59,758 bases of DNA from Alistipes sp. Lineage in GTDB: Bacteria; Bacteroidota; Bacteroidia; Bacteroidales; Rikenellaceae. The stretch is from NCBI GenBank assembly GCA_017937125.1, contig JAGBEH010000009.1:1-59758 (forward strand). The letters run 5' to 3'. Below the pieces are notes generated by a model, which saw only the letters and a program-made list of their open reading frames with translations, ran no database searches and was not told where the DNA came from. Positions 12,599 to 40,376 of this stretch are shown in pieces. Position 1 is the stretch's first letter; each line of letters begins with the position of its first letter. Position numbers and translations under genes: made by a program.

Positions 12599-12629
12599 TT
12601 TGCTTGTTAAAACGTTTTAATTACCTTTG
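12599..12629 (+). promoter_or_regulatory. Promoter of the first glycan operon
   Basis: TTTG (12599-12602), 19 nt, then TACCTTTG (12622-12629) is an exact match to the Bacteroidetes promoter form TTTG-N19-TAnnTTTG. The start codon of the first gene lies 67 nt after the -7 box. The spacer contains the palindromic operator. Confidence 0.85.
12607..12620. promoter_or_regulatory. LacI-type operator TTAAAACGTTTTAA
   Basis: A perfect 14-bp palindrome with the central CG usual for LacI-family sites, placed between the -33 and -7 boxes of the plus promoter and just after the expected start of the minus (araB) transcript. Near-copies lie at 40354-40367 (one mismatch) and 40206-40219 (two mismatches), beside the LacI-family gene's own operon. 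Confidence 0.75.
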
Positions 12630-12661
12630 CAAAGGTAAAGGAATTTACCGAAGAAAGCAAA
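12630..12661 (-). promoter_or_regulatory. Promoter of araB, overlapping the opposing promoter
   Basis: On the minus strand TTTG (12661 to 12658), 20 nt, TACCTTTG (12637 to 12630) fits the Bacteroidetes form. Its -7 box abuts the plus promoter's -7 box, together forming the 16-bp palindrome TACCTTTGCAAAGGTA (12622-12637). The two promoters cannot be occupied at once. Confidence 0.7.
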
Positions 12662-12695
12662 TTGTCGGAAACTTTTATAAACAGCCCTGACGAAA

Positions 12696-14681
12696 ATGAA
12701 CTTTTTGCGTATCAAAATCTTTGTGACACTATTTTCTGCCGTCTTCGCGGTCTCCCTATCTTATGCGTCCGCGCCTGCCCCTTGCGGGTGTTCGGTGCTC
12801 AAATACAACAACCCCGACCTTACGGTCGATCTCGGCGTGGGGCTGTGGGGGATCCCCATACCGACGGATTACAACGGCGACGGACTTACCGACCTTATCG
12901 TCTCGTGCCCCGACAGACCTTACAGGGGTTTGTATCTTTTTATAAATATAGGTACGGCGAAAAAGCCGCTCTTCGACCGTGCGGTGCGCATCAGCAACAA
13001 GGGCCTCAACAACATAAAGCTCTCGCAGGTGGACGGCGTATCGTATGTGCTGTCGAACGAAACGGAGCATATCGACTTTTTCGAGCGTCCGTATGCCCGC
13101 AAGGCGGAAATAGTTTATGAGGGCGCCCGACTGAATGAGGGCTACAAGCGTTCGCGCAGCAATATGTGGAGTTATGTCGATTGGGACGGCGACGGCGACA
13201 AGGATATAATCGTCGGCATAGATACGTGGGACGATTACGGTTGGGACAACGCTTTCGATGCTTCGGGACGTTGGACGCGCGGGCCTCTGCACGGTTATGT
13301 CTGTCTGCTCGAAAATACGGACGGCAAGTATGTCAATCGCGGGAAGATAGAGGCCGGCGGCAAGGCCATAGATGTTTACGGTGCGCCCAATCCGTGCGTA
13401 GCCGATTTCGACGGCGACGGGGATTCGGACATCATCTGCGGCGAATTCATCGACGGCCTGACGTGGTTCGAGAATGTGGGGACGCGTACGGAGCCGAAGT
13501 TCGCTGCGGGGCGCCGTCTTGCGAACGGCGAGGGGGAGATACGTATGCATCTGGAGATGATAGTCCCCGTAGTCTATGATTTCGACGGCGACGGCAAGCC
13601 CGACCTCGTTGTCGGCGACGAGGACGGACGTGTGGCGCTCGTGCGCAATACGGGCAGGACGAAGGAGGGTATGCCGCAGTTCGAAAGTCCCGTATATTTC
13701 CGCCAGCGTGCCGATTTGGTGAAGTTCGGCGCATTGTCCACTCCGTTCTGCGTAGATTGGGACGGCGACGGCAAAGTCGATATCGTTGCAGGCAACTCGG
13801 CGGGCGAGATAGCTTTCATACGCAACCTTACGGGCGGCGAAAATCCGTCGTGGGACGAGCCGAAACTCTTCACCGTCGGCGGCAAACCCATACGCATTCA
13901 GGCGGGTTACAACGGTTCGATACAGGGACCTGCCGAGAGCAAATGGGGATATACGGTGCTGACAGTCGCCGACTGGGACGGCGACGGGCTGAAAGACATA
14001 ATCGTCAATTCGATATGGGGTAAAATAGAGTGGTTCAGGAATTTGGGCGGTAAGAGAGGTCTCGAACTCGCTCCTGCGCAACCCGTGCGTGTGGCGTGGG
14101 AGGGCAAGGCTCCGAAACCCGCTTGGAATTGGTGGACGCCCGAAGAGGGGTCGCTCGTTACGCAGTGGCGCACGACGCCCGTCGCGATCGATTGGAACAG
14201 GGACGGTTTGACTGATCTGGTACTGCTCGACAGCGAGGGATACCTCTGTTACTGGGAGCGTTATCGCGCCGAGAACGGCGAGCTGCTGCTCAAGGCGCCG
14301 CAGCGGATATTCTACTCGACGAACTGTTCCGTTTACGATAACCGCAAGGGCGTCGCCGACGCTTCGGAGGGCATATTGCGCCTGAATGCGCTCGAAGCAG
14401 GCAAATCGGGGCGTCGCAAGATATGTCTCGTCGATTGGGACAATGACGGCGATTTCGACCTGATAGTCGATGGCAAGAATGCCGTGCTGTTCGAGAATGT
14501 CCGCGAGGCGGACGGCCGCGTATGGTTCGAATATAAGGGGGCGTTGAGCGATGCCGTGCTCGCGGGGCATACTACGTGCCCGACGGCGGCGGATTTCGAC
14601 GGCGACGGTATTCCGGAGCTGCTGCTCGGTGCCGAGGACGGCCATTTTTACGTTCTTCGGAACTGCAATACACGGAAATGA
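12696..14681 (+). CDS. Secreted VCBS/FG-GAP repeat protein
   Basis: The 661-aa protein starts with a signal peptide (about residues 1-26, ending SYASA). It carries nine calcium-binding loops of the FG-GAP/VCBS type, from DYNGDGLTD near residue 58 to DFDGDGIPE near residue 635; others include DWDGDGDKD, DFDGDGDSD and DWNRDGLTD. Such repeats fold as a beta-propeller that binds calcium. In gut Bacteroidetes these proteins accompany glycan-utilization loci, and some polysaccharide lyases have similar loops, but no catalytic motif is recognised here. It is the first gene after the operator-controlled promoter, so it should be among the most strongly induced products. It is probably exported to the periplasm or surface. 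Confidence 0.85.
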   Translation: MNFLRIKIFVTLFSAVFAVSLSYASAPAPCGCSVLKYNNPDLTVDLGVGLWGIPIPTDYNGDGLTDLIVSCPDRPYRGLYLFINIGTAKKPLFDRAVRISNKGLNNIKLSQVDGVSYVLSNETEHIDFFERPYARKAEIVYEGARLNEGYKRSRSNMWSYVDWDGDGDKDIIVGIDTWDDYGWDNAFDASGRWTRGPLHGYVCLLENTDGKYVNRGKIEAGGKAIDVYGAPNPCVADFDGDGDSDIICGEFIDGLTWFENVGTRTEPKFAAGRRLANGEGEIRMHLEMIVPVVYDFDGDGKPDLVVGDEDGRVALVRNTGRTKEGMPQFESPVYFRQRADLVKFGALSTPFCVDWDGDGKVDIVAGNSAGEIAFIRNLTGGENPSWDEPKLFTVGGKPIRIQAGYNGSIQGPAESKWGYTVLTVADWDGDGLKDIIVNSIWGKIEWFRNLGGKRGLELAPAQPVRVAWEGKAPKPAWNWWTPEEGSLVTQWRTTPVAIDWNRDGLTDLVLLDSEGYLCYWERYRAENGELLLKAPQRIFYSTNCSVYDNRKGVADASEGILRLNALEAGKSGRRKICLVDWDNDGDFDLIVDGKNAVLFENVREADGRVWFEYKGALSDAVLAGHTTCPTAADFDGDGIPELLLGAEDGHFYVLRNCNTRK

Positions 14682-14710
14682 AACGATAATGAATTAAGAT
14701 ACATTGGATT

Positions 14711-15622
14711 ATGAAGAAATTACATGGAATTATCCCGCCTATGGTCACGCCTCTCAAGGGCGATGACACGATAGATGTCGAAGGTACCAAACGCCTTACG
14801 GAGCATATGATTGCCGGCGGTGTGCACGGCCTGTTCCTGTTGGGGACTACGGGCGAGGCACAGAGCCTTTCGTACAAATGCCGTTACGAGTTCGTGGAGC
14901 TGGTCTGCCGCGAAGTGGCGGGGCGCGTGCCCGTGATAGTCGGCATCACCGACACCTCGATGGACGAGAGCGTCAAACTGGCCGTGCACGCGAAAAACTG
15001 CGGCGCCGTGGCCGTCGTTTCGGCGCCTCCCTACTATTTCGCACCATCGCAGCAGGAGCTTATAGAGTATTACACGGCGTTGGCGGATGCGCTTCCGCTG
15101 CCGCTCTACCTCTACAATATGCCGTCGCACGTGAAGGTCGTTTTCGACCCCAAGACGGTGGCTGTGCTGGCGGAACATCCGAATATCGTGGGACTGAAAG
15201 ACTCGTCGGCCAATATGACCTATTTCCAGACGCTGCTGCACCTGCTCGGCGGACGCGAGGATTTCGCGCTGTTCGTAGGACCCGAAGAACTGACGGGCGA
15301 ATGCGTTCTGATGGGTGCCGACGGCGGCGTGAACGGCGGCGCCAATATGTTCCCCGAGCTGTACGTGGGTATGTACGAGGCGGCGATGCGTCGCGACATC
15401 GAACACGTCCGCGAGTTGCAGAGACGCATAATGCAGATCAGCACGTCGATTTACACCGTAGGCAAATACGGTTCGAGCTACCTGAAGGGCGTGAAGTGTT
15501 CGCTTTCGCTCATCGGCATCTGCGACGACTATCTTTCGTATCCTTACCGCAAGTTCCGCCCCGAAGAGCGCGCCAAGATCAAGCGTGCACTTGAGGAGCT
15601 GGGCGTGGCCTGCGGGAATTGA
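14711..15622 (+). CDS. DapA/NanA-family aldolase (sialate lyase-like)
   Basis: This class I aldolase of the dihydrodipicolinate synthase/N-acetylneuraminate lyase family forms a Schiff base with 2-keto acids. The 303-aa length is normal. LFLLGTTGEAQSLS holds the GTTGE carboxylate-binding motif (about residues 45-49), Y135 in LYNMP is the catalytic tyrosine, and K163 in VGLKDSS is the Schiff-base lysine. Next to an SSS symporter and a YhcH gene, a role in cleaving N-acetylneuraminate or a related 2-keto-3-deoxy sugar acid is the likely reading. The GTTGE form is more DapA-like than the GSTGE of characterised NanA, so the substrate is uncertain; cytoplasmic. Confidence 0.82.
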   Translation: MKKLHGIIPPMVTPLKGDDTIDVEGTKRLTEHMIAGGVHGLFLLGTTGEAQSLSYKCRYEFVELVCREVAGRVPVIVGITDTSMDESVKLAVHAKNCGAVAVVSAPPYYFAPSQQELIEYYTALADALPLPLYLYNMPSHVKVVFDPKTVAVLAEHPNIVGLKDSSANMTYFQTLLHLLGGREDFALFVGPEELTGECVLMGADGGVNGGANMFPELYVGMYEAAMRRDIEHVRELQRRIMQISTSIYTVGKYGSSYLKGVKCSLSLIGICDDYLSYPYRKFRPEERAKIKRALEELGVACGN

Positions 15623-15652
15623 TGCAACCGACCTCTAAACTACCGACTCGTT

Positions 15653-17143
15653 ATGGATATAACTTTACTCGATTACATCGTATTTTTCCTCTTCGTGGGA
15701 GGTGTGGCTCTGTTCGGATGCAGCTTCTTCTTCCGCAGCCGCAAAGGTGCTTCGGCATTTACGGCCGCCGACGGAGGGCTGCCTACGTGGGTCGTCGGAA
15801 TGTCGATATTCGCCACGTTCGTCAGCAGCATCAGCTTTCTCGGCCTTCCGGGCGATGCCTACAAAGGCAACTGGAACCCGTTCGTCTTCAGTCTCTCTAT
15901 CCCCGTCGCCACGTGGCTGGCGGCGAAAGTCTTCATTCCGCTCTATCGCGGGATGAACAGCGTTTCGGCTTACCACTATCTCGAAATGCGCTTCGGATAT
16001 TGGGCGCGTTTCTATGTGGCCGTGTGCTACCTGCTGACGCAGCTCGCGCGCATCGGGTCGATACTGCTGCTGCTCGCATTGCCCATAAGCACGATGTTCG
16101 GCTGGGATATTCAGACCATAATAATCTGGACGGGTATTGCGACGCTCGTCTACACGCTGCTGGGCGGTATCGCGGCTGTCGTGTGGACCGATGCCGTGCA
16201 GGGTATAATATTGATATTGGGAGCCATAGCCTGCGCGCTGATACTTACGTTCTCGATGCCTGAAGGTGCGGGGCAGCTGTTCGAAATAGCGCGTGCCGAC
16301 GGCAAGTTCTCGCTCGGCAGCTTCGGCGCGAGCCTTACCGAACCGACATTCTGGGTGGTATTGATTTACGGACTGTTCGTCAATATGCAGAATTACGGCA
16401 TCGACCAGAACTACGTGCAGCGCTATATGACCACCAAGTCTACAGCCGAAGCCGTAAAATCGACGCTGTTCGGCGGGCTGCTCTACATTCCCGTCTCGCT
16501 GGTGTTCGTATATATCGGCACCGCTCTGTACGCATACTATACGGCGCGCCCCGAACTGCTGCCCGCAGGTACGGCGGCCGATAAGGTGTTCCCCTATTTC
16601 ATCGTTCACGGGTTGCCGACGGGTGTTACGGGGCTGGTCATAGCGTCGCTCTTTTCGGCGGGTATGAGTACCGTAGCCACGAGTATCAACTCTTCGGCGA
16701 CGATCGTCCTCACCGACTTCGTGAAGCACTTCTCGAAGCGCGAATTCGGCGACAGGCGCAGTATGGCGGTGCTCTACGGTGCGTCGTTCGTCGTCGGTGC
16801 GCTCGGCATCGTCGTGGGGCTTATGATGATGCGCATCGACGGCGTGCTCGACGCGTGGTGGAAGCTTGCATCTATATTCAGCGGCGGTATGCTCGGACTC
16901 TTCCTGTTGGGGTTGGTTTGCCGCAACGTGAAGCGTGCGCACGCCGTTACGGCCGTCATTCTCGGACTTATAGCCATAGCGTGGATGAGCCTTTCGCCGC
17001 TCATAAACGAGGGGTCGCCGTTCTACTGCTTCCGCAGCCCGCTGCATACCTATCTCACGATAGTCGTAGGCACGACCGTGATATTCCTTACGGGATTTAT
17101 CCTTACATCGTTGTTCAACAGAAATAAGGGAGGGGCGGTATGA
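15653..17143 (+). CDS. Sodium/solute symporter, SSS family
   Basis: The 496-aa protein is an inner-membrane transporter of the SSS family with about 13 hydrophobic segments. FLFVGGVALFG marks the first helix, followed by PTWVVGMSIFATFVSSISFLGLPG, which carries the family's early conserved segment, and YLLTQLARIGSILLLLALP. SSS members in this setting import sialic acid or another monosaccharide with sodium. The gene lies between the aldolase and the yhcH-like gene, and its stop overlaps the next start by 4 bp (ATGA). The substrate is inferred only from neighbours. Confidence 0.88.
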   Translation: MDITLLDYIVFFLFVGGVALFGCSFFFRSRKGASAFTAADGGLPTWVVGMSIFATFVSSISFLGLPGDAYKGNWNPFVFSLSIPVATWLAAKVFIPLYRGMNSVSAYHYLEMRFGYWARFYVAVCYLLTQLARIGSILLLLALPISTMFGWDIQTIIIWTGIATLVYTLLGGIAAVVWTDAVQGIILILGAIACALILTFSMPEGAGQLFEIARADGKFSLGSFGASLTEPTFWVVLIYGLFVNMQNYGIDQNYVQRYMTTKSTAEAVKSTLFGGLLYIPVSLVFVYIGTALYAYYTARPELLPAGTAADKVFPYFIVHGLPTGVTGLVIASLFSAGMSTVATSINSSATIVLTDFVKHFSKREFGDRRSMAVLYGASFVVGALGIVVGLMMMRIDGVLDAWWKLASIFSGGMLGLFLLGLVCRNVKRAHAVTAVILGLIAIAWMSLSPLINEGSPFYCFRSPLHTYLTIVVGTTVIFLTGFILTSLFNRNKGGAV

Positions 17144-17745
17144 AACGGTTGATGACAATTGTGTGCGGTGCGATGATGATTGCGTGCGGAGGCAATGTTT
17201 CGAATGTAGGGAATTGGTCCGACGAGCGCATCGAAGAGTGGTGCGAATCGTCGGAGTGGTTCTCCGAGCTGCCGATGAAGGTAGACGGGCAGACCGACCG
17301 ACGTCGGTTCGTCGAGCAGAATGTCCTCAATCCCGAAGCGTGGCGTGCCGCATACGGGTTTCTGACGAGGAGCGATTTAGTCGATTTGCCCGAAGGTTCG
17401 TATACGCTCGATGATAACGGTACTTTCGCGACGGTCGCGGAGTACGATACCAAGGAGGATGCCCGCTTCGAAGCGCACGAGAGATATATCGACATACAGT
17501 ATGTGATGTCGGGACGCGAGCGTATCGATATTGCCGCTCCCGAAGCGGAGAAGAGCGGGAGGACGCCTTACGACTAGGAGCGCGACATAGAGTTTTTCGA
17601 TGTCGAGGACTATCGCTCGGTCGAGGCGAATTCCGCGAATATCGTCGTTCTGTTTCCGAACGACGGCCACCGCCCCTGTATGAACCTCGACGGGACGGAA
17701 CGGGTGAGGAAAATCGTGGTCAAGATACCTTATAAAGAGATTTAG
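17140..17745 (+). pseudogene. YhcH/YjgK/YiaL-family protein interrupted by TAG
   Basis: The frame encodes a YhcH-type protein (sugar anomerase family often found with sialic acid genes). The first part has EAHERYIDIQYVMSGRERI, matching the conserved HEQYIDIQ-like block. A TAG at 17575-17577 ends the ORF after TPYD. The same frame then continues without shift through ERDIEFFDVEDY and VVLFPNDGHRPCM, the conserved C-terminal PxxxH block, to the TAG at 17743-17745. One GAG-to-TAG change would explain this. The N-terminus (MMIACGG) looks like a lipoprotein signal, whereas most YhcH proteins are cytoplasmic. It is either a pseudogene, a strain-specific or sequencing change, or, less likely, read through. 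Confidence 0.85.
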
Positions 17746-17751: not shown

Positions 17752-18927
17752 ATGCGCAGATTATTTTCGATACTCGTCGCGGTCGCGATGTTCGGCGGTA
17801 CCGCCTTTTCGCAAACGGCGCCTGCACCTGCGGGCGTGATTGTCGATTTCTGCTCGTTGGACAACGGCAAGTATATCGGTTCGCCGAGCATTGCCGTTCT
17901 GCCCGACGGTTCGTATGTGGCGTCCCACGACGAATTCGGGCCGAAATCGGCGGAGTACAAATCGGCCGTTACGCTCGTTTTCCGCTCTACGGACAAGGGC
18001 GCTACGTGGCATAAGATTTCGCGCATCGAGGGCGCTTTCTGGTCTACGCTGTTCGTGCATCGCAACGCTTTGTATATGATGGGCACGAACAAGGCGCACG
18101 GCAATGTGGTGATACGCCGTTCGAATGACGGCGGCGTAAACTGGACCGAACCCTGCGATGCGGAACACGGCCTGCTCGTCGAGGGCGAGTATCACACTGC
18201 TCCGACTCCCGTGCTGGTGGCCGCAGGGCGCATATGGCGTGCCGTAGAGTACGCTACGGGCAAGAGCATCCGGTGGCCCGAACGATATGGCGCCGTGATG
18301 TTGTCGGCGCCCGAGAACAGCGATCTGCTGAATGCCGCGAACTGGACGCGTTCCGAGACGCTGCGTCCCGATTTCTCGAACTGCGGCGATACGGATTTCA
18401 AGGGCTGGCTCGAAGGCAATGCGGTCGTCGGGAAGGACGGGAGTGTCCTCGATATTCTGCGCGTGCACGTCGGCCGTGCCGCCGATGAATACTGTGCCGT
18501 GCTGAAGTGCGACAAAAAGGGGCGTCGAATGAGTTTCGACGGGTTCCGTCCTATGGAGGGCGGCTCGAAGAAGTTCACGATACGCTACGATGCGAAGAGC
18601 GGCAAGTATTGGAGCATAGTCAATTACGTTCAGCCCGATTTTCGCGGGATGTTCCCCGACCGCGTACGCAATCGCTTGGTGCTCGCTTCGTCCGACGACC
18701 TGCAAACGTGGACGATGCGCCGTCTGTTGGTAGCGCATCCCGATTGCCTTACGCACGGGTTCCAGTATGTGGATTGGGTCGTAGACGGCGATGACATCGT
18801 CTATCTCGTCCGCACGGCTTTCGATGAGCCCGACGGACGTCAGGCCAAAGATTATCACAATGCCAACTATCTTACGTTCGACCGCGTGACCGATTTCAGA
18901 CAATATTCCCGAACCGAGATGCAATGA
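17752..18927 (+). CDS. Sialidase-fold (BNR) protein 1
   Basis: The 391-aa exported protein (signal peptide about 1-20, GGTAFSQ) has the six-bladed sialidase fold as judged by Asp-box motifs STDKGATW and SNDGGVNW. Conserved blocks shared with the two following genes are YIGSPSIAV, YVASHD, EYHTAPTPV, EGNAVV, KKFTIRYD, GFQYVDWVVDGDDIV and HNANYLTF. Databases would probably call it an exo-alpha-sialidase, but the XRIP arginine motif of GH33 is replaced by GSP, so neuraminidase activity is doubtful. It is a glycoside hydrolase or lectin acting outside the inner membrane. It overlaps the next gene by 4 bp. Confidence 0.8.
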   Translation: MRRLFSILVAVAMFGGTAFSQTAPAPAGVIVDFCSLDNGKYIGSPSIAVLPDGSYVASHDEFGPKSAEYKSAVTLVFRSTDKGATWHKISRIEGAFWSTLFVHRNALYMMGTNKAHGNVVIRRSNDGGVNWTEPCDAEHGLLVEGEYHTAPTPVLVAAGRIWRAVEYATGKSIRWPERYGAVMLSAPENSDLLNAANWTRSETLRPDFSNCGDTDFKGWLEGNAVVGKDGSVLDILRVHVGRAADEYCAVLKCDKKGRRMSFDGFRPMEGGSKKFTIRYDAKSGKYWSIVNYVQPDFRGMFPDRVRNRLVLASSDDLQTWTMRRLLVAHPDCLTHGFQYVDWVVDGDDIVYLVRTAFDEPDGRQAKDYHNANYLTFDRVTDFRQYSRTEMQ

Positions 18928-20111
18928 AGACGAAAATGATATATCTGTCGGTGCTGGCGATGTTCGCCGTATGGACATCGGCGGCACAGACGCCCGAGCT
19001 TGCTAAACCCGACGGCGTGGTCGTGGCGCATACGCCCAAGAGCGAGACCAAATACGTCGGGTCGCCGTCGATAGCCGTATCGCCGTCGGGGGTCTACGTG
19101 GCCTCGCACGACTTTTTCGGCAAGCGCGCCAACATCAACGGCAAGGCGGTAACCGTCGTTTACACCTCCAAGGACAAGGGTGCTACGTGGAGTCGCGCGG
19201 CGACGGTACTCGGGCAATACTGGTCCAATTTGTTCTATATCGGCGACAATCTCTATCTGCTCGGCGTGGAGCGCGGGCACGGCAACATCGTTATCCGCCG
19301 CTCGACGGATGACGGCCGCACGTGGACGACGCCTGCGGACGAACGCAGCGGCCTGCTCTTTCGCGGGGCTTACCATACGGCGCCCACGCCCGTAATCGTG
19401 GCGAACGGCCGTATATGGCGGGCGTTCGAGAAGGCCGACGCTATGCAGCACAAGTCCAATTTTCGTTACGGGCCGCTGATGATAAGTGCGGCGGCGGATG
19501 CCGATCTGCTCGATGCCTCGTCGTGGCGTATGTCGAACCATATAACCGTCAAGAGCTCGTATGCCGACGGCGAGTGTAAGGGCGTACTCGAAGGCAATGC
19601 CGTAGCCGACAGGGACGGGCATATCGTGGATGTGCTCCGTATGCACGTCTGGCCGGGTGCGGTGGAGCACGTGCTCATAGCGCGGGTTTCGGACGACGGT
19701 GCGACGATGAGTTTCGACCCCGAAAGCGATTTCATACCGTTCGAGGGCGGATCCAAAAAGTTCAGCATACGTTTCGACGTGATTTCGGGGCGTTACTGGA
19801 CACTGGCCAACGACGTGATGAAGGAGCACGCGGGCGAGTATCCCGCTGCCGTGAGAAACAGCCTCGTATTGATGTCGTCGCCCGATCTGCGGAGGTGGAC
19901 CAAGCACCTGCGGGTGCTGCATCATCCCGACACCAAGCTGCACGGCTTCCAGTATGTCGATTGGCTCGCTGACGGCGAGGATATGGTATTCGTGTCGCGT
20001 ACGGCGTTCGACGACGAGTTCGGCGGCGCGGACAACTACCATAATGCCAACTATCTGACATTCCATAGAATAGAAAATTTCCGCAAATACGAAAAAGAGA
20101 TAGTCGAATGA
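18924..20111 (+). CDS. Sialidase-fold (BNR) protein 2
   Basis: This 395-aa paralogue of the preceding gene has a signal peptide (about 1-22, ending SAAQ), Asp-boxes SKDKGATW and STDDGRTW, and the same conserved blocks: YVGSPSIAV, AYHTAPTPV, EGNAVAD, KKFSIRFD, GFQYVDWLADGEDMV and HNANYLTF. The presence of three copies in a row with 4-bp overlaps means recent tandem duplication and division of labour on related linkages. As in copy 1 the GH33 XRIP arginine is absent. A stretch near 19314-19385 is almost identical in DNA to copy 3, suggesting gene conversion. Confidence 0.8.
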   Translation: MKTKMIYLSVLAMFAVWTSAAQTPELAKPDGVVVAHTPKSETKYVGSPSIAVSPSGVYVASHDFFGKRANINGKAVTVVYTSKDKGATWSRAATVLGQYWSNLFYIGDNLYLLGVERGHGNIVIRRSTDDGRTWTTPADERSGLLFRGAYHTAPTPVIVANGRIWRAFEKADAMQHKSNFRYGPLMISAAADADLLDASSWRMSNHITVKSSYADGECKGVLEGNAVADRDGHIVDVLRMHVWPGAVEHVLIARVSDDGATMSFDPESDFIPFEGGSKKFSIRFDVISGRYWTLANDVMKEHAGEYPAAVRNSLVLMSSPDLRRWTKHLRVLHHPDTKLHGFQYVDWLADGEDMVFVSRTAFDDEFGGADNYHNANYLTFHRIENFRKYEKEIVE

Positions 20112-21343
20112 CCTTTTCGGCACGCATATTCGTCTCGGTGCTGTCGCTCGCGTTCGCTGCCTGCGGCAAGAATGTTATCGTTACGACGGTCGATATTCCC
20201 GAAAGCCGCAGCGAAGTGCAGTCGCCGTCGGCGCCTCTCGGTACGGTCATAAGTCATTTCCCGAAATCGGGCGGCGCCTATGTGGGTTCGCCGTCGATTG
20301 CCGTTGCGCCCGACGGAAGCTACGTAGCCTCGCACGACCTTTTCGGCGACGGCGCACCCCTCTCGGAGCGCGGTCGTACGACGCTCGTGTTCCGTTCGAC
20401 GGACAACGGGCTGACGTGGGTGCAGGTGTCGGAGATCGACGGACTTTTCTGGGCTAACCTGTTCTATCTGAATGATAAGTTGTATGCGTTCGGCGTGGAG
20501 CGCGGACACGGGAATATAGTCATAATGCGCTCTGCCGACAACGGCCGCACGTGGACGACGCCGACCGACGAACGCAGCGGCCTGCTCTTTCGCGGGGCCT
20601 ACCATACGGCTCCGACACCCGTAGTTATAGGCAAATGCCGAATATGGCGTGCCGTAGAGTATGCCGATGCCATAGACTCCACGCTGCCGATACGCTACGG
20701 GGCGGCGATGATAAGTGCGGAGACGGGTTCGGACCTTCTGAATGCCGACAATTGGCGTATGACCAACATATTGGCTGCCGATGCGACCGATTTGGGCGGC
20801 GAGATGCGCGGCTGGCTCGAGGGCAATGCGGTCATCGGTCCCGACGGCGGCATTCTCGACATTATGCGCGTGCACGTGTGGCCCGGAACGCCCGAATATG
20901 CGGCGGTGCTGCGCGTCTCCGACGACGGACGGCGCATCTCGTTCTCGGAGGATGATTACGTGGAGTTTGCGGGCGGCGCCAAAAAGTTTACCATACGCTA
21001 CGACAAGAAGAGCGGGTTGTATTGGACGTTGGCCAACAACGTTCGGGAGGAGTATGCGTCGGAATATCCCGCCAGCGTCAGGAACACGCTGTCGCTGTTC
21101 TCCTCGCCGGATTTACGGCACTGGACGATGCGCAAAACGGTGCTGTCCCATCCCGACCGGCTGAAACACGCGTTCCAGTATGCCGACTGGGTCATACGGG
21201 GCGATGACATACTTTTCGTCTCGCGAACTGCGTGGGAGGATGCGGAGGGCGATGCCGCGTCGGCGCACGATGCGAATTACCTGACATTCCACCGTATTGT
21301 GGGGTTCAGAAGTCTGGCGGATACTGTTGCCGATAACGAATGA
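20108..21343 (+). CDS. Sialidase-fold (BNR) lipoprotein 3
   Basis: The third tandem paralogue has 411 aa and a likely lipoprotein signal (SLAFAACG, cysteine near residue 18), unlike the apparently soluble copies 1 and 2. Asp-boxes are STDNGLTW and SADNGRTW. YVGSPSIAV, YVASHDLFG, AYHTAPTPV, EGNAVI, KKFTIRYD and the C-terminal ANYLTFHR are kept; FQYADWVIRGDDILF shows mild divergence. Lipid anchoring would place it on the outer membrane while the other two work in the periplasm or are released. Its substrate is unknown; see the other copies for the missing XRIP arginine. Confidence 0.8.
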   Translation: MTFSARIFVSVLSLAFAACGKNVIVTTVDIPESRSEVQSPSAPLGTVISHFPKSGGAYVGSPSIAVAPDGSYVASHDLFGDGAPLSERGRTTLVFRSTDNGLTWVQVSEIDGLFWANLFYLNDKLYAFGVERGHGNIVIMRSADNGRTWTTPTDERSGLLFRGAYHTAPTPVVIGKCRIWRAVEYADAIDSTLPIRYGAAMISAETGSDLLNADNWRMTNILAADATDLGGEMRGWLEGNAVIGPDGGILDIMRVHVWPGTPEYAAVLRVSDDGRRISFSEDDYVEFAGGAKKFTIRYDKKSGLYWTLANNVREEYASEYPASVRNTLSLFSSPDLRHWTMRKTVLSHPDRLKHAFQYADWVIRGDDILFVSRTAWEDAEGDAASAHDANYLTFHRIVGFRSLADTVADNE

Positions 21344-31964: not shown

Positions 31965-32007
31965 TGCAGCACATTGAAACTGAAACAAGAATTTGAACCT
32001 TAAAATT

Positions 32008-32151: not shown

Positions 32152-32163
32152 AACGGGGAAGCT

Positions 32164-34371
32164 ATGAAGAGAACTGTTTTTTTGCTGACAGCCGTTGCCG
32201 TTGCTGCGGTGTCGTGCGTAAAGGATGACAATGCCGTCGTTGAAGGTCGGGACGGTAAATTTACGGTCTATGCCGCCGTGGAAGCTACCCGTGTATCGGT
32301 GGGCGAGAGCGGTTCCGGTGCCGATGGTGTGGGGCGCAAATTGAGTTGGGATGCGGGCGACCGCATAATGTTGTTCGACAACGAGAACTATGCCGAATTG
32401 CAGATAAAAGATGTCGCATCGGGTGCGTTCGACGGCTCGGGTGCGGCCCTCGCGAACGAAACGGAGTATTATGTGATACACGCTCCCGAGGCCGCGACTT
32501 TCCTTGCGGGTACGGGGATGACCGTATCGGCGCCGACCGATTACACCGTAAATCCCGCGAACGAGGAGCATTTGAAGAAGAACATAGTGCTTGCGGGGCG
32601 CAATACGGTCTCGTTCGTAAACGGAGCGGCGCAGTCGGGCGTAACGCTCGGTATGCGTACCGCCTATTTGGAGATACCGTTGCAGCTTCCCGCGGATATG
32701 GCGGATATGGACGTTACGATGCTCGGCATAGAGTCCTCGCGCAAGGGGTATTTCGTGAATTGCCTCAAGCTGGACGGAATGGGCGGGGAGTCGTACGAAT
32801 GTCTCGCGGGGAACAGGATGACCGTGAGGTTCTCGCCCGCGCTTTCGCTTTCGTCGTCGGCTCCTTCGGTCGTGAAACTCGTGGTGTGGATGATGCCGGG
32901 TGTGGAAGTCGCTGCGGGCGATCTGTTCACCTTCACCTTGAGCGACGCATCTAATCGGACGACAGTATTCACGAAGCCGCTGGTGAAACTCGAAGCGGGG
33001 AAATATTATAAGGTCGATAATTTCTCCATAGAGGGTGAGACGGTGACGGATTTCACGCCGACGGCCGTCGAGCGCGCCAACTCGTATATGATACACCCGA
33101 CCGACGGTGTGCAGGAGGTACGTATTCCCGTAGACAAGGTGAACGCCTATTGGGGACGCACGGTGAAAGGCTATGGGAACACGCCCGCCAATACTATCTC
33201 CGAAGGCAACGTTACGGCGTGGACGGCGGAGGTCGTATGGGCCGATTTCGACTGGAAATCTGCGGGTTGCACCGTCGAGACCTCCAACGGTCCCGTCGGC
33301 GGTACGGAGGACCATATCGTGGTTAAGTTCATGCCCTCGGTCAAGACTGGCAATATGGTTGTCGGCATACGTCCGCAGACCGCTACGGCCGATTGTCCCG
33401 AGGGTTGCTATCTGTGGAGCTGGCACTTGTGGATAACCGATTACAATCCCGATGCCGCCGTGCCCGAAAACGGCCGTACGGATATGTGGGAGGGGCTGAC
33501 GCGACCGATGATGGACCGCAATCTCGGATTCCTGCATAACGGCAGCGGCCGTCTGTCGAACGATATGAAGGGTATTCTCTATTATCAGTGGGGACGAAAG
33601 GATCCGTTCCCCGCAAATATCAGGCTGTGGGGCAGCGACGGCGCAGTGCTCGCCGAACCTACCGACGACAAGACTCCCGATTTCATCTCGCGCACGGCCG
33701 TTTTCGGCTCGGCCGTCGAGTGCAGGCAGGGCGTTTTCAATCCGCTGACGTTCTATGCCGCGAACAGCGACTGGAATGCCGACGGCGGTACCGTGACCTG
33801 CATATGGTCGGACCGCGCATCGGCGAAACCGACGGCTTCGGTCGGGTCGGAGGATGATGCCAAAACCATGTACGATCCGTGTCCTCCGGGTTGGAAACTG
33901 CCTCACGGTGCGGTTTTGCAGACGCTCGGCACCTCGTCTTCGGGTGCTGCGGGAGAGGCCGACCATAAGCGCGGCAACGATCGCGGATTCGACATTACGG
34001 CGAAATCGTTCTTCGCGATTTACAGCACCTACAAGACAGGCGTATGGTACGATCCTGCAGGCGAGAGGTCGATGATAGAGGCCGATGCCACGCCTTATGA
34101 CAGGTTCCCCGTATATATTCCCGCCGTAGGATTCCGCCGCGGAACCAAGGCCGAGGAGAAGGGCGGACTGGACCAGTACCAGTATTCGGCACTGCTTTTC
34201 AAGAACGGCGCCAACTCCGCGGGTTATGCTTATCTGTGGTCTTCGACACCCACGTCGGGAGCGAATGCGCCTGCATTATGCGTGGGTCAGGGTCTCGGTA
34301 CCAATGCCGCTACGTTCAACAATTCGGTCAAGTCGATAGGCCTTCCCGTGCGTTGCGTAAAGGCGAAATAA
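32164..34371 (+). CDS. Fimbrillin-family surface lipoprotein
   Basis: This 735-aa lipoprotein (VAAVSCVKDD, cysteine near residue 19) has an N-terminal fimbrillin-like domain (LSWDAGDRIMLFDNENYAEL through LEAGKYYKVDNF, about 50-285). Its C-terminal half has MDRNLGF, YYQWGRKDPFP, YDPCPPGWKLP, YLWSSTP and PVRCVK, the pattern of the paralogous domains attached to Bacteroidetes fimbrillin-like proteins. It may be a fimbrial subunit or tip, or a glycan-binding surface protein. Finding it inside a carbohydrate operon, with similar N-terminal domains on two other proteins here, suggests a binding role. Confidence 0.75.
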   Translation: MKRTVFLLTAVAVAAVSCVKDDNAVVEGRDGKFTVYAAVEATRVSVGESGSGADGVGRKLSWDAGDRIMLFDNENYAELQIKDVASGAFDGSGAALANETEYYVIHAPEAATFLAGTGMTVSAPTDYTVNPANEEHLKKNIVLAGRNTVSFVNGAAQSGVTLGMRTAYLEIPLQLPADMADMDVTMLGIESSRKGYFVNCLKLDGMGGESYECLAGNRMTVRFSPALSLSSSAPSVVKLVVWMMPGVEVAAGDLFTFTLSDASNRTTVFTKPLVKLEAGKYYKVDNFSIEGETVTDFTPTAVERANSYMIHPTDGVQEVRIPVDKVNAYWGRTVKGYGNTPANTISEGNVTAWTAEVVWADFDWKSAGCTVETSNGPVGGTEDHIVVKFMPSVKTGNMVVGIRPQTATADCPEGCYLWSWHLWITDYNPDAAVPENGRTDMWEGLTRPMMDRNLGFLHNGSGRLSNDMKGILYYQWGRKDPFPANIRLWGSDGAVLAEPTDDKTPDFISRTAVFGSAVECRQGVFNPLTFYAANSDWNADGGTVTCIWSDRASAKPTASVGSEDDAKTMYDPCPPGWKLPHGAVLQTLGTSSSGAAGEADHKRGNDRGFDITAKSFFAIYSTYKTGVWYDPAGERSMIEADATPYDRFPVYIPAVGFRRGTKAEEKGGLDQYQYSALLFKNGANSAGYAYLWSSTPTSGANAPALCVGQGLGTNAATFNNSVKSIGLPVRCVKAK

Positions 34372-34380
34372 CATTGGTTG

Positions 34381-34406
34381 CGGGGAGGGATGCCCGTCCC
34401 TCCCCG
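34381..34406. repeat. Strong hairpin between fimbrillin-like and GH2 genes
   Basis: CGGGGAGGGA (34381-34390) pairs perfectly with TCCCTCCCCG (34397-34406) across a 6-nt loop. No U-tract follows, so it is not a classical terminator. It may stabilise or mark the processing of the operon mRNA ahead of the GH2 gene. Confidence 0.7.
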
Positions 34407-34419
34407 ACGTTATGACGAT

Positions 34420-36714
34420 ATGCGAAAATTAAGATACATACTTGTCGCGTTGTGCGCCTTGCAGTGCCTTGCGACGGCTTCGGGGCATTCGTTCGACGCG
34501 GATTGGCGCTTCAGATTTGCCGATCCCGACGCGGACTACTCCTCCGTGCACGTTTCGACGGAGGAGTGGACGCCCGTTACCCTGCCGCATACTCCGCGTT
34601 ACGAAGATTATGCTCTCGTACGCCAGTGGCAGGGGATATGCTGGTATGCCAAGGAGTTCGAGATCGACGGCAGGGTCTCGGGCAAACGTTTCATTCTCAC
34701 CTTCGACGGGGCGATGAACGTTGCGGACGTGTGGATAAACGGCGTGCATCGCACCCGCCACTCGGGCGGCTATCTGCCCGTAGTCGTCGATATTACCGAC
34801 GATGTGCACCGCGGTTGCAACCGCATAGCCGTGCGGTTGGACAACAACGATAACCGTATGACGGGTCCGAAACCCGTGTCGCAGCTCGACTATTTCCTCT
34901 ACGGCGGACTGTATCGCAGCGCGCATCTGACCGTCAAGGATGATGTCCGCATTACGGACCCTTTCCTCGATGCGACGCCTGCCGCAGGCGGCGTCTTCGT
35001 CTCTTATGACAATGTCGGCAGGGATTCGGCCGATGTGAATGTCAGGGTGTCGGTGGCGAACGGACGCAGGCGGAATGTCGAAGTGCGGGTCGTGAACATC
35101 TTGTCGTACGACGGGCGTGAGGTTGCACGTTCGGCGGCGACGCGAAGCGTTGCGGCCGAAGCGACAGTTATTGCGGAGACGAAAATGGTCGTGCAGGAGC
35201 CGCTGCTGTGGTCGCCGCAGTCGCCGCATCTCTATACGTTGAGGACGGTTGTGGAGACGGACGGTCGCCAGACCGACTCCGAGAGCCGCCGCATAGGCAT
35301 AAGGAGTATCGAGATAAAGGATAAGGAGCTGTACGTAAACGGCCGGCGTTGTTTCCTGCGCGGCGTGAACCGCCACCAGAGTTATCCGTATGTCGGCAAT
35401 GCTCTGTGCGACAATGCCCAGCGGCGCGATGCCGTGAAGATAAAGGAGGCGGGTTTCGACTACGTGCGCCTGTCGCACTATCCGCAGTCGCCCGCGTTTC
35501 TGGACGCCTGCGATTCGCTCGGCATCTTCGTGCTCGATGCGATATCGGGCTGGCAGTTTTTCGACGACTCCGAAGAGTTCGCCCTGCACCAGTACCGTTC
35601 CGCCCGTGAACTCATTCGGCGCGACAGGAACCGCCCGTGCGTGCTGGCGTGGGAGCTGTCGCTCAACGAAACGGCTATGCCGCGCGATTTCATAGAACGT
35701 ATGAACGACATCCTGCGCGAAGAGTACCCTGCGCCGTACTGCTATTCCGCAGGGTGGAAAAAGGGGTATGACATCTATCTCGAAGCGCGTCAGCACCGCA
35801 TAAAATATCGCACGAAAGAGTACGATGCCCCGCTTATAGTCTCCGAGTACGGCGACTGGGAGTTCTATGCCATAGACGAGGGTTTTATGCAGCACAAGAT
35901 GCGCTGGTTCCAGAAGCCCGAACTCACATCGCGGCAGTTGCGGGAGTACGGCGAGCGGCGGATGCTGCAACAGCTCGAAAATATCAGGATCGCCCACGCG
36001 GACAACGTGCAGGCCGTACCTGCGATGGCCGACGGATATTGGGCGATGTTCGACTATAATCGCGGACTGGCGCCCGACATAGAGTCGTCGGGCATAATGA
36101 GTCTCGACCGTCTGCCGAAGTATTCCTATCATTATTTCCGTTCGTTGCGCGAAGGCGGCGAGCCGATGGTATTCATAGCGTCGAATTTCGATAAGGATAC
36201 GGGCAGGAAGGTTACGGTGATTTCGAATTGCGAGAGCGTAACCCTATGTCTCGACGGCAAAGAGACAGGCGAATGCCGTCTCGACACGGCTTCGATGCCG
36301 AGACGGACCGTTGCCGAATTCGAATTGCCTGAGGATGCGGCGAATTTCTCCGTATTGACCGCCAACGGGCGTATCGGGGGCCGCGACGTTGCGAGCCATA
36401 CGTTGCGCCGCCCCGAAAAGCCGTCGGCGATAGAGCTCGTTTGCGACGAAAGCGGTGTGAAGCTCGGGCGCAACGATATGGCTTTCGTCTACGTCCGTCT
36501 GGTCGATCGCAACGGCACTGCGATTTTCGAAAACGGCCGCGAGGTATTTCTCTCGGTCGAGGGTGATGCCGCGGTTGCGGGCAGCCGTTTTTCTCCGCTG
36601 CGTGGCGGGACGGCTTCGTTCCTCGTGCGGACGGGTATGCACGGCGGTGAAGTCGTACTGACGGCGCAGTGCGGGAATTTCCGCACATCGAAAAGAGTTC
36701 ATATAGATTTTTAA
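34420..36714 (+). CDS. GH2-family beta-galactosidase-like hydrolase
   Basis: The 764-aa exported enzyme (signal peptide about 1-21) has the GH2 layout: jelly-roll sugar-binding domain (WYAKEFEI, DGAMNVADVWING), Ig-like domain (LLWSPQSPHLYTLRT), TIM barrel (FLRGVNRHQSYP, RLSHYPQSPAFLDACDSLGIFVLD), acid/base E417 in LSLNETAM and nucleophile E476 in VSEYGDWE. A further beta domain closes the C-terminus. Beta-galactosidase is the most frequent activity in this subgroup, but other GH2 activities are possible. The start at 34420 gives a proper signal peptide; the longer ORF start lies in the hairpin. It is followed 10 bp later by the GH20 gene. Confidence 0.87.
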   Translation: MRKLRYILVALCALQCLATASGHSFDADWRFRFADPDADYSSVHVSTEEWTPVTLPHTPRYEDYALVRQWQGICWYAKEFEIDGRVSGKRFILTFDGAMNVADVWINGVHRTRHSGGYLPVVVDITDDVHRGCNRIAVRLDNNDNRMTGPKPVSQLDYFLYGGLYRSAHLTVKDDVRITDPFLDATPAAGGVFVSYDNVGRDSADVNVRVSVANGRRRNVEVRVVNILSYDGREVARSAATRSVAAEATVIAETKMVVQEPLLWSPQSPHLYTLRTVVETDGRQTDSESRRIGIRSIEIKDKELYVNGRRCFLRGVNRHQSYPYVGNALCDNAQRRDAVKIKEAGFDYVRLSHYPQSPAFLDACDSLGIFVLDAISGWQFFDDSEEFALHQYRSARELIRRDRNRPCVLAWELSLNETAMPRDFIERMNDILREEYPAPYCYSAGWKKGYDIYLEARQHRIKYRTKEYDAPLIVSEYGDWEFYAIDEGFMQHKMRWFQKPELTSRQLREYGERRMLQQLENIRIAHADNVQAVPAMADGYWAMFDYNRGLAPDIESSGIMSLDRLPKYSYHYFRSLREGGEPMVFIASNFDKDTGRKVTVISNCESVTLCLDGKETGECRLDTASMPRRTVAEFELPEDAANFSVLTANGRIGGRDVASHTLRRPEKPSAIELVCDESGVKLGRNDMAFVYVRLVDRNGTAIFENGREVFLSVEGDAAVAGSRFSPLRGGTASFLVRTGMHGGEVVLTAQCGNFRTSKRVHIDF

Positions 36715-36724
36715 TTCGTTTGTA

Positions 36725-38302
36725 ATGAAAAAGATTATTTGCATATTGTCCGTATTCGTATGGTGGTCGGCGGTGGCTCAGAAGGCCGTTATTTTCCCCG
36801 AACCCGCGGAGATGACGGTAACGGGCGGTTTCTTTACGTTCGATGCGCGGTGCGCTTTCTCGCTGGCTCCCGATAACGGGGCTATGCGCGAGGCGACGGA
36901 GGTTTTCGCCGAACGCGTGCGCAAGAGCACGGGGCTGGATATCCCCGTTGCGGCGAAAGGAAATATCGAATGCGTCTTGTCGGACCGCATCGCCGACGAC
37001 GAGGGGTACGAGATGACGGTTACGTCCCGAAAGATAAGGATTGCGGCGAAGAGCCCGGCGGGGGTGTTTTACGCCTTGCAGAGTGTACGCCAGCTGTTGC
37101 CTCCGCAAATAGAGGCCGATTCGGTCGTTGCCGGCGCTGATTGGCGGGTGTCGTGCGTGCGTATAGCGGATGCTCCGCGGTTCGCATATCGCGGGGCGAT
37201 GTTCGATGTGTGCCGCAACTTTTTCGACAAGGAGTTCATACTCGAATATCTCGACATCCTCGCCCTGCACAAGATAAACAAATTCCACTGGCATCTTACC
37301 GACGATCAGGGCTGGCGTATCGAGATAGCGAAATATCCCAAGCTGGTACAAAAGGGCGCTTTCCGCGACCGTACGATGCTTACGCAGACGGTGGTGCTGC
37401 CGCGTGTGTGGGACAATACGCCCGTCGGGGGATATTTTACGCGCGAGGATGTGCGCGAGGTCGTCGAGTATGCCCGCAAACGCAACATCGAGGTCATTCC
37501 CGAGATAGAGATGCCGGGGCACGCTTTGGCGGCGCTGTCGGCATATCCCGATCTCTCCTGTACGGGCGGCCCGTTCGAGGTGGACGGCCGTTGGGGCGTG
37601 TTCAACGATATTTTCTGCCCGAAAGAGAAGACGTTCGCGTTCTTGCAGGATATTTTGTCGGAGGTGGCGGATATGTTCCCTTCGAAATACATACATATCG
37701 GCGGCGATGAGGCTCCCAAGGTGCGTTGGAAGCGATGCCACCATTGTCAGGAGCTGATGCGGCGCGAGGGCATCGCGGACGAAGCCGCACTTCAGGCCTA
37801 TTTTACCAACCGTATGGAGTCGTTCCTGCGAAACATAGGCAAGACGGCCATAGGTTGGGACGAGATACTGGACGGCGATATCAACCGCAATGCCGTGGTG
37901 ATGTCGTGGCGGGGATATAAGGGCGGCATAGCGGCTGCGAAGCGCGGGCACGACGTGATAATGTGCCCCAACAAGTTCCTCTATTTCGACTACTACCAGT
38001 TCGATGACGACCGCGGCCCGCTCGAAAAACGGCACCGCATACCTCTCGAAAAGGTATATACGTTCGAACCCGTGCCGTCCGAGCTGACCGAAAGCGAGGG
38101 CAGGCACATAATCGGCGTGCAGGCCAATATGTGGACGGAGTATGTACGTACGCCCGAATATGCCCGATATCTCCTCTTTCCGCGCCTTACGGCCTATGCG
38201 GAAATGGCGTGGGGCACCAACGGCGATTACGCGCGTTTTACGGAACGGCTCGAAATTTTCAAGAAACGATACGATGCACTGAATATAAATTATGCTAATT
38301 GA
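36725..38302 (+). CDS. GH20 beta-N-acetylhexosaminidase
   Basis: The 525-aa exported enzyme (signal peptide about 1-19, SAVAQ) removes terminal beta-GlcNAc or GalNAc. It has the N-terminal GH20b domain, then the catalytic barrel with [20 protein letters not shown], and HIGGDEAPK, giving the catalytic pair D328-E329. [11 protein letters not shown] is the usual block before it. The [27 protein letters not shown] block near the C-terminus is family-typical. Its presence argues for a host-type glycan (mucin or N-glycan) rather than a plant polymer as the target of the locus. Confidence 0.94.
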
Positions 38303-38309
38303 TACGAAT

Positions 38310-40085
38310 ATGAAGAACAATCATTCCAGGATCGGTATCAGACCGATCATAGACGGCCGTCGCGGTGGTATTCGCGAGTCGCTCGAAGATATGACTATGG
38401 GAATGGCGCACAGCGTGGCCGCACTTTTCGCCGAGAAGCTGCGTTATGCCGACGGCACTCCCGTCGAATGCGTTATTGCCGACCGCACGATAGGCGGCGT
38501 CAAAGAGGCGGCTATGGCTGCCGAGAAGTTCGCGGCGAATAACGTGGGTGCCGTGCTGTCGGTAACTCCCTGCTGGTGTTACGGCTCGGAGACCATAGAT
38601 ATGGATCCGCTGATGCCCAAAGCCATATGGGGCTTCAACAAGACCCAGCGCCCCGGGGCTGTTTATTTGGCATCGGCCTTGGCGGGGCATAACCAGAAGG
38701 GGCTGCCTGCGTTCGGCATCTACGGAAGCGACGTGCAGGAGTTGGACGACAATGCCATTACGCCCGATGTCGAGGAGAAGCTGCTGCGCTTCGGACGCGC
38801 GGCCGTGGCCGTTATGGAGATGAAGGGCAAGTCCTATCTGTCGATAGGTTCCGTGTCGATGGGTATCGCCGGTTCGATGCCCGACCCCGATTTCTTTCAG
38901 GAGTATCTGGGGATGCGCAGCGAGTATGTCGATTGTTCGGAGATCGCCCGCCGCATCGAACTCGGGATTTATGACAAGGAGGAGTTCGCGCGTGCTATGG
39001 AGTGGGTCGAAAAGTACTGCAAGACACGCGAGGGCGAGGACCTGAACCCCGAACATCTGCGTTATTCGCGCGGGAAGAAGGACGAGGTATGGGAGTATGT
39101 CGTGAAGATGACCATTATATTCCGCGACCTGATGACGGGCAATCCGAAACTCGCCGAGATGGGCTTCGAGGAGGAGGCTATGGGGCACAACGCTATCGCG
39201 GGCGGTTTTCAGGGGCAGCGCCAGTGGACGGATTTCCGACCAGACGGCGATTTCTCGGAGGCGATGCTCAACACGTCGTTCGACTGGAACGGCATTCGCG
39301 AGCCGTTTACCTTTGCTACCGAGAACGATACTCTCAACGGCGTTTCGATGCTGTTTATGCACCTGCTGACCAATCAGGCGCAGCTCTTTTCGGATGTGCG
39401 CACCTACTGGAGCCCCGAAGCCGTAGAGCGCGCTACGGGGCGTCGGCTCGCAGGACGCGCGGCGAACGGCATAATCCATCTTATAAACTCGGGTTCTTCG
39501 ACTCTCGACGCTACGGGGGCGATGAGCGATGCCGACGGCAACCCCGTGATGAAACCCCATTGGGAGATTACGGAGGACGACGTGCAACGGTGTCTCGAAG
39601 CCACGACGTGGCACCCTGCGGGGCGCGAGTATATGCGCGGCGGCGGCTTCTCGTCGAAGTTCCTCACGCGCGGCGATATGCCCGTTACGATGTGCCGCGT
39701 GAACCTCATCAAGGGACAGGGTCCCGTGCTTCAGATAGCGGAGGGTTGGGCAGTCGATGTCGATCGCGAGATATACGAACACATAGACAAGCGCACCGAC
39801 CCGTCGTGGCCTACGACGTGGTTCGCGCCGCGTCTGACGGGCAAGGGCGCATTCAAGAGCGTCTACGACGTGATGAACAACTGGGGTGCCAATCACGGCG
39901 CGATAACTTACGGCCATATCGGTGCCGACCTCATTACGCTGGCGTCGATGCTGCGCATACCCGTATGTATGCACAATGTCGATGAGAAGAAGATTTTCCG
40001 TCCGTCGGCGTGGGCGGCCTTCGGTATGGATCCCGAAGGTTCCGACTATCGTGCCTGCAACAACTACGGGCCGATATACAAATAG
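38310..40085 (+). CDS. fucI: L-fucose isomerase
   Basis: FucI converts L-fucose to L-fuculose, and D-arabinose to D-ribulose, in the cytoplasm. The 591-aa product is the same length as the Escherichia coli enzyme and matches it block by block: [62 protein letters not shown] and [13 protein letters not shown]. The metal-binding glutamate and aspartate lie in the EEEAMGHN and SFDWNG regions. The ATG at 38310 was chosen over an earlier in-frame one inside the GH20 gene. It closes the first operon. No fuculokinase or aldolase of the fuc type is seen, only the distant AraB-type kinase. Confidence 0.95.
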
Positions 40086-40113
40086 TACGGTTTAGGTTGA
40101 GGTTAGTGGTGAG

Positions 40114-40136
40114 GGGCGTCGGAAGACGCCCTTTTT
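40114..40136 (+). terminator. Rho-independent terminator of the first glycan operon
   Basis: GGGCGTC-GGAA-GACGCCC followed by five T's, 28 bp after the fucI stop: a 7-bp GC-rich stem and a tetraloop. This ends a 27-kb run of plus-strand genes. Confidence 0.9.
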
Positions 40137-40205
40137 CGTGCCTGCCGCAACACGGCAGACGTCCGTGCGGAGTTTAATCGTCGGTGCGTTTCCTTTCGGC
40201 ATATG

Positions 40206-40219
40206 TTATAACGTTTTAT
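40206..40219. promoter_or_regulatory. Possible auxiliary operator
   Basis: TTATAACGTTTTAT matches the operator TTAAAACGTTTTAA at 12 of 14 positions and keeps the AACGTT core. It lies about 148 bp upstream of the main operator of the second promoter, a distance that could allow looping by a tetrameric or paired LacI-family repressor. Confidence 0.4.
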
Positions 40220-40345
40220 CTTTTATCTGCGTTTTCGAATGCCGTATATATGTCTTCGTATCGTCGGACAAAATGCAATAAAAGGCGATATCGGCCTATT
40301 TTACAGTGTTTCATATAAAAAATACGATGTTTTTTATTCGTTTTG

Positions 40346-40376
40346 TTTGCTAATTAAAACCTTTTAATTACTTTTG
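40346..40376 (+). promoter_or_regulatory. Promoter of the second glycan operon
   Basis: TTTG (40346-40349), 19 nt, TACTTTTG (40369-40376) fits the Bacteroidetes promoter form exactly and has the same spacing as the first operon's promoter. Confidence 0.8.
40354..40367. promoter_or_regulatory. LacI-type operator TTAAAACCTTTTAA
   Basis: The site differs from the 12607-12620 palindrome only in its centre (CC for CG) and sits at the same place between the -33 and -7 boxes, 5 nt after the TTTG. The shared placement supports common control. Confidence 0.7.

Follow-up and report, generated by a model that had tools for sequence, protein, structure and literature searches.

A LacI-family regulator and its probable promoter-embedded operators in a glycan utilization locus of Alistipes with a candidate Kdo pathway

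Local repressors of the LacI family with operators in promoters are textbook knowledge; RbsR, CcpA, GalR and LacI itself combine a helix-turn-helix (HTH) domain and a periplasmic-binding-type ligand domain with a palindromic operator and adjoining sugar genes. To our knowledge, the regulators of the gut genus Alistipes have been little studied. The DNA analyzed here (the window) is a stretch of 59,758 nucleotides from Alistipes sp., contig C8 of its genome, and encodes a LacI-family protein that, irrespective of the substrate, very probably acts as the repressor of a conserved local regulon. The protein, the operators (with a central CG at site 1) and the adjoining sugar genes are of the type just described, and relatives carry the operator before their own lacI, as is the case for LacI/GalR local repressors. 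Unlike in that type, the operator lies in the spacer of a Bacteroidota promoter (TTTG/TAnnTTTG), and the targets form a SusC/SusD locus with an aldolase, FucI and a ribulokinase. The AraR L-arabinose regulon of Bacteroides thetaiotaomicron is likewise a gut Bacteroidota sugar regulon involving ribulokinase, but AraR is an NrtR-family factor (PMC4666351, excerpt), and AraA was not found in a search of the Alistipes genome. Sialic acid loci also contain an aldolase of the same superfamily, an SSF symporter, a sialidase-fold protein and SASA esterases, but here FucI and ribulokinase belong to the core, no epimerase was found in the cluster, and the aldolase falls below the NanA cut-offs.

The genome comprises 2,159,937 bases in 12 contigs and is 90% complete, so that gene absences are uncertain. 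The regulator and its candidate sites are as follows.

12599-12629, + strand: promoter 1, with TTTG at 12599-12602, an N19 spacer and the -7 box TACCTTTG at 12622-12629
12607-12620, strandless: operator O1, TTAAAACGTTTTAA, inside the spacer of promoter 1; matrix score 28.4
22792-22805, strandless: operator O2, TTAAAACGATTAAA, 19 bp upstream of susC; matrix score 19.0
40206-40219, strandless: operator-like sequence O3, TTATAACGTTTTAT, 148 bp upstream of O4; matrix score 15.9
40346-40376, + strand: promoter 2, with TTTG at 40346-40349, an N19 spacer and the -7 box TACTTTTG at 40369-40376
40354-40367, strandless: operator O4, TTAAAACCTTTTAA, inside the spacer of promoter 2; matrix score 21.2
42115-43143, + strand: LacI-family regulator, matching PF00356 with 51.2 bits (cut-off 27) and PF13377 with 82.4 (cut-off 26.5)

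Both promoters have a spacer of 19 bases with four bases between TTTG and the operator, with 27,747 bp from one operator start to the other; the original prediction of two TTTG-N19-TAnnTTTG promoters about 28 kb apart, with an operator in identical register and a LacI-family gene at 42115-43143, can be read in the sequence as described, the gene being confirmed by its domain matches. The 14-bp palindrome assigned to both sites is present at both, but that of O4 is imperfectly symmetric, with CC at its centre. The genome-wide scan for palindromes in promoter spacers that had been proposed with the prediction came out in its favor: TTTG-N4-TTAAAACSTTTTAA-N1-TAnnTTTG occurs without mismatch at the two window sites alone in the 2.16-Mb genome, and TTTG-N4-TTNAAACNTTTNAA-N1-TAnnTTTG with up to three mismatches has three matches (two at 0, one at 3), against none for the reversed control of the joined pattern. 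The bare palindrome TTAAAACNTTTTAA, which the prediction required to be rare elsewhere, is so in its exact form (three places in the genome), but with one mismatch it is near background (13 strand-matches versus 9 in the control). Within the window, operator matches with up to two mismatches amount to eight strand-matches at four places (0.37 expected). A scoring matrix trained on 21 sites of relatives (6 distinct), none of them from the window, ranked positions 12607, 40354, 22792 and 40206 highest, followed by a score of 6.5; by chance, 0.27 sites are expected at a score of at least 12. The third exact palindrome (C4:243295, corresponding to L044:10296) is located 21 bp upstream of the ATG of a gene for a BACON-LamG-GDPD lipoprotein, at a place without a clear -33/-7 pair. 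An Rfam scan of the window yielded no match reaching the gathering threshold.

The window LacI carries a LacI-type HTH and a periplasmic-binding-like ligand domain, and the operator is linked to its orthologues. None of the 19 listed NCBIfam equivalog matches exceeds its cut-off, the best being an RbsR model (198 bits versus 382). Relatives of the gene, sought in 120 genomes of the family at E <= 1e-40, are present in 23, the own genome counted; a single-sequence search of genome contigs returned none, an alignment search returned matches. Further relatives, from the best 80 of 238, come from 79 loci of a named collection, and the 31 of these loci with a LacI identity of at least 45% served as the comparison set. 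The comparison near orthologous lacI genes suggested with the original prediction revealed the operator core AAAACGTTTT, matched at 9 or more of its 10 bases and no more than 150 bp upstream of lacI, in 26 of these 31 loci, against 2.36 expected from dinucleotide shuffles. A second operator follows within 360 bp downstream of lacI in 24 of 30 loci (0.98 expected; L065, whose contig ends there, is left out), and in L082 and L085 this downstream operator is letter for letter the same as O2. Across the family genomes, the promoter-operator with zero or one mismatch occurs nine times, namely at the two window sites and at seven places within about 100 bp upstream of a lacI orthologue; two or three mismatches add 13 matches, one of them before lacI (G086), with five in the reversed control. 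The comparison with relatives supports the claim that this LacI lineage uses both sites.

At site 1 the operator adjoins a -7 box that is followed by its own mirror image:

12622-12637, strandless: mirrored -7 core, TACCTTTGCAAAGGTA, the -7 box and then its mirror image
12630-12661, - strand: leftward promoter toward araB, TTTG (12658-12661)-N20-TACCTTTG

The mirror CAAAnnTA follows the site in 20 of 20 loci with a divergent kinase and in 1 of the 10 that lack one (Fisher p 7e-7, a value that overstates independence since the rows are related; L067, L077, L086, L090 and L091 are left out, and the kinase label was assigned by the analyst), and a leftward TTTG at 17-21 bases is found in 16 of the 20. 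Since site 1 adjoins the mirrored box, a pair of face-to-face promoters, leftward to araB and rightward to the sugar operon, is probably under the control of one operator; going by the predicted start points, this operator can overlap the spacer of one of them and the earliest transcribed bases of the opposite one. This conserved arrangement, together with kinase scores above both NCBIfam ribulokinase cut-offs, upholds the inclusion of AraB in the regulon. A near-symmetric core promoter serving two directions has been described for acrA/acrR of Escherichia coli, where AcrR represses both RNAs (PMC12825309, excerpt), whereas here a Bacteroidota -7 box is mirrored, the two boxes abut rather than share an element, the repressor is of the LacI type, and divergent transcription is predicted. 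Genome-wide, there are four matches to the mirrored core (control 0), three of them flanked on either side by reading frames that start within 500 bp; the core suggests how bidirectional promoters of Bacteroidota may be built and repressed. The other three cores, TAnnTTTGCAAAnnTA, are at C1:32606 (L178), C4:516934 (L179) and C12:45112 (L181); two of them sit between divergent reading frames, possibly as members of a class of bidirectional promoters.

Gene order in relatives suggests how the two sites arose. Many of them have, with variations, a divergent kinase followed by lacI - FG-GAP - aldolase - SSF - FucI - SusC, and their promoter-operator upstream of lacI is nearly identical to window site 1. 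Site 1 consequently looks like a former lacI promoter, lacI of the window lineage now being part of the second unit. Among cultured relatives, Alistipes muris DSM 112343 (L078) has the cluster. L064 from an uncultured Alistipes (LacI identity 72%), the nearest relative, shows what we read as an intermediate between the ancestral and the window order: operators precede the FG-GAP gene (1198), one lacI (9940) and the nuclease gene (11328), a second lacI lies ahead of a large BNR protein, matching the window, and both window sites are kept at corresponding places. The interval between fucI and the nuclease gene shares with that of L064 a single 48-bp DNA match (83%) that contains promoter 2 and its operator, and this island conserved upstream of the nuclease bears out the predicted membership of the nuclease unit in the regulon. 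O3 may be an auxiliary site or a relic; it may form a looping partner of O4, the 148 bp corresponding to about 14 turns, but the gene order of L064 would fit equally well if O3 were left over from a lacI promoter since lost.

The two units and the interval between them contain the following.

10712-12349, - strand: araB-type ribulokinase, NF003154 700 bits (cut-off 428), TIGR01234 602 (583), divergent from operon 1
12696-14681, + strand: secreted FG-GAP repeat protein
14711-15622, + strand: DHDPS/NanA-superfamily aldolase (DHDPS, dihydrodipicolinate synthase)
15653-17143, + strand: sodium:solute symporter, best solved match 5nv9
17140-17577, + strand: YhcH/YjgK/YiaL protein
17752-21343, + strand: three BNR proteins (sialidase fold in the model of the first)
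21360-22781, + strand: SASA-family esterase
22825-27612, + strand: SusC/SusD pair a
27549-38302, + strand: DUF5017, GH42-like, LRR, Fib_succ_major, GH2 and GH20 proteins
38292-40085, + strand: L-fucose/D-arabinose isomerase FucI, model above cut-off
40377-41100, strandless: dispersed-repeat DNA between promoter 2 and the operon, 60 listed genome matches, itself counted
41179-41937, + strand: S1/P1-type nuclease family protein, start from alignment with L064
43145-47251, + strand: protein of 1368 amino acids with a C-terminal BNR part
47462-52228, + strand: SusC/SusD pair b
52247-57006, + strand: two DUF5017 proteins and a SASA esterase

With two adjacent SusC/SusD pairs and GH2, GH20 and GH42-like proteins, the region is a polysaccharide utilization locus. 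The original prediction of a bipartite regulon was right in its two units but incomplete, as it missed the face-to-face promoter, the repeat DNA, the site at the GDPD gene and two weaker operators in the window (22792, 40206). A hairpin directly after fucI (GGGCGTC-GGAA-GACGCCC-TTTTT, 40114-40136), read from the sequence and not listed by a scan, is likely the terminator of operon 1. The dispersed repeat is composite and recurs at 9526-10363 and 1-102 of the window as well as at the ends of other contigs, and may be the cause of assembly breaks there.

The substrate was approached through the enzymes. FucI and ribulokinase models above cut-off beside the aldolase indicate a D-arabinose isomerase and a D-ribulokinase (substrates predicted), the kinase being far below the fuculokinase model TIGR02628 (59 versus a cut-off of 471); FucI enzymes also turn D-arabinose into D-ribulose (PMC6894278, excerpt). 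PF00596, the class-II aldolases of the AraD/FucA/RhaD type, has no member in a search of the own genome. A close lacI (identity of at least 48%) is present in 13 genomes; AraA was found in none of them and a single PF00596 match in each of three (G036, G101, G113). Given a ribulokinase and FucI with AraA and PF00596 scarce, D-ribulose is the simplest meeting point of the two enzymes. The aldolase was rejected as an NCBIfam NanA, with 128.8 versus 281 and 105.7 versus 382 for the two models, and as DapA (TIGR00674, 190 versus 206.15), where it also has a histidine in place of an arginine. Its lysine K163 is invariant (9/9 aligned), and it reads YNMPSH where 3pud has YNVPGR; the arginine of the DapA-type YNxPxR motif has a functional role. 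Seven of the nine aligned relatives have the histidine (Asn in L060, Leu in L122), as does the closest solved relative 4xky, presumably from B. thetaiotaomicron, which is named dihydrodipicolinate synthase and, from this residue, may be misnamed.

3-Deoxy-D-manno-octulosonic acid (Kdo) is cleaved by NanA of E. coli and by human NPL (PMC13220900, excerpt), NanA-type enzymes form it in reverse from D-arabinose and pyruvate (PMC4016182, excerpt), and a Kdo hydrolase activity is among those given for the glycoside hydrolase (GH) family GH33 (PMC9120202, excerpt). The six-bladed sialidase fold considered for the three BNR proteins is seen in a fold model of the first; sequence searches of the PDB gave weak matches for this small protein and nothing for the large BNR protein. 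A Clostridiales metagenome-assembled genome (MAG) has the cluster FucI - FGGY kinase - DHDPS - TctCBA - LacI, and in another MAG the DHDPS gene adjoins FucI. Gene content, the cited Kdo cleavage and the MAG clusters make Kdo the first choice; the substrate would be an acidic 2-keto-3-deoxy sugar, most likely Kdo, at about even odds. No gene cluster for Kdo catabolism was found in the literature searched, mostly by title.

In the mechanism we propose, ligand-free repressor on operators in the -33/-7 spacer would keep RNA polymerase off. At site 1 a single operator would close both the rightward FG-GAP-aldolase-symporter-...-FucI unit and leftward araB; at site 2 the repressor would close the nuclease-lacI-SusC/D-esterase unit, lacI hence being self-controlling, and further operators would act upstream of susC (22792) and near promoter 2 (40206). 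Kdo would be imported by the symporter and split into pyruvate and D-arabinose, which FucI would convert to D-ribulose and ribulokinase to ribulose-5-P; the derepressing ligand would probably be a pathway intermediate, such as the acid sugar, D-arabinose or D-ribulose. Taken as a whole, with a probability of roughly 0.45, gut Alistipes and relatives may strip Kdo from bacterial lipopolysaccharide (LPS) or capsule or from plant rhamnogalacturonan II, import and split it and feed D-ribulose to the pentose pathway, with LacI as sensor, one operator closing a face-to-face bidirectional promoter, and the nuclease and the GDPD lipoprotein (both secreted and phosphodiester-cleaving) in the same scavenging programme. 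Local regulation of the LacI type is already known; the Kdo assignment, if right, would be the new part. Kdo from LPS or pectin would then be a gut carbon source and 4xky might be such an aldolase, and the locus offers a testable operator map for a gut genus along with candidate genes for Kdo breakdown.

Several observations weigh against the LacI regulon or its assignment to Kdo. Some family genomes and named loci are identical records and the 31 loci are mutually related, so that the counts are not independent. In five of the 31 loci (L067, L077, L086, L087, L090) the core is missing from the 150 bp next to lacI, although L086 has a perfect one farther upstream, at 184 bp, and L087 an 8/10 core inside a promoter, and the strict in-register test (operator in the spacer, one mismatch per box) was passed by 19 of the 31 alone. 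One of 60 shuffles reached a matrix score of 19.0, the highest among them, which makes 22792 and 40206 weaker claims. Promoter 2 lies 802 bp from the nuclease start (about 41179), mostly across dispersed-repeat DNA, so that of the prediction that both promoters head operons the two units stand but the second promoter is distant; a related repeat lies inside operon 1 at 31903-31964. As regards Kdo, all three BNR proteins have GSPSIAV at the usual place of the first arginine, by sequence reading without structure overlay, and the first arginine of the sialidase triad sits in an RIP motif. NanE, moreover, is present in the own genome, with which the argument that the absence of both epimerases excludes sialic acid fails.

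The same regulon might instead serve host mucin, with the aldolase as N-acetylneuraminate lyase and the BNR proteins as sialidases, and with L-fucose and hexosamine caps as further sugars. The sialidase fold of the first BNR protein, the SASA esterases, GH20 and GH2, a symporter closest to 5nv9 (which we take to be SiaT), NanE and the presence of AGE in 8 of the 13 close-lacI genomes speak for mucin, but the kinase is a ribulokinase and not a fuculokinase, a FucA-type PF00596 protein was not found in the 90% complete genome, the aldolase misses both NanA cut-offs, and no AGE or NanE exceeds its cut-off in four of the 13 genomes (G072, G113, G088, G098), which leaves mucin a doubtful but serious candidate. 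That one LacI controls two sugars, D-arabinose through FucI and ribulokinase and an unrelated keto acid through aldolase and symporter, would suit distant Bacteroides relatives (LacI identity 38-42%), whose lacI stands before FucI, in several with a kinase, and with no aldolase match in the locus (L092, L098, L099, L100, L102); it is improbable, however, as the close clade has aldolase and symporter adjacent, mostly followed by FucI, and aldolase, FucI and kinase co-occur in distant taxa too.

Rivals to the regulatory part fare worse than these alternatives for the substrate. Another regulator might bind the sites, as a second LacI-family gene exists in the genome, on contig C1, but its recognition stretch reads TVDRVL versus LVSFVM in the window LacI, and all nine aligned orthologues with the operator in their loci keep LVSF. 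The window LacI might also activate there, as a spacer position alone does not prove repression; an operator over a core promoter usually blocks polymerase, and both possibilities together appear quite improbable. A coincidence of AT-rich sequence in two promoters could appeal to the near-background frequency of one-mismatch palindromes, yet the uniqueness of the joined pattern to both sites in the genome, its conservation before lacI in relatives and the first and second ranks of these sites under the relatives-trained matrix reduce it to a very slight chance. Local regulation by the window LacI thus remains the preferred reading of the two sites.

Two further regions of the window were noted. 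A tyrosine-recombinase gene (57428-58769) has a perfect TTTG-N19-TAnnTTTG at 57428-57458 that overlaps its listed start at 57444. On the - strand, 331-9506 encodes the large and small chains of carbamoyl-phosphate synthase, a dihydroorotase-like protein, dihydroorotate dehydrogenase and a phosphoribosyltransferase, a gene set of the pyrimidine type.

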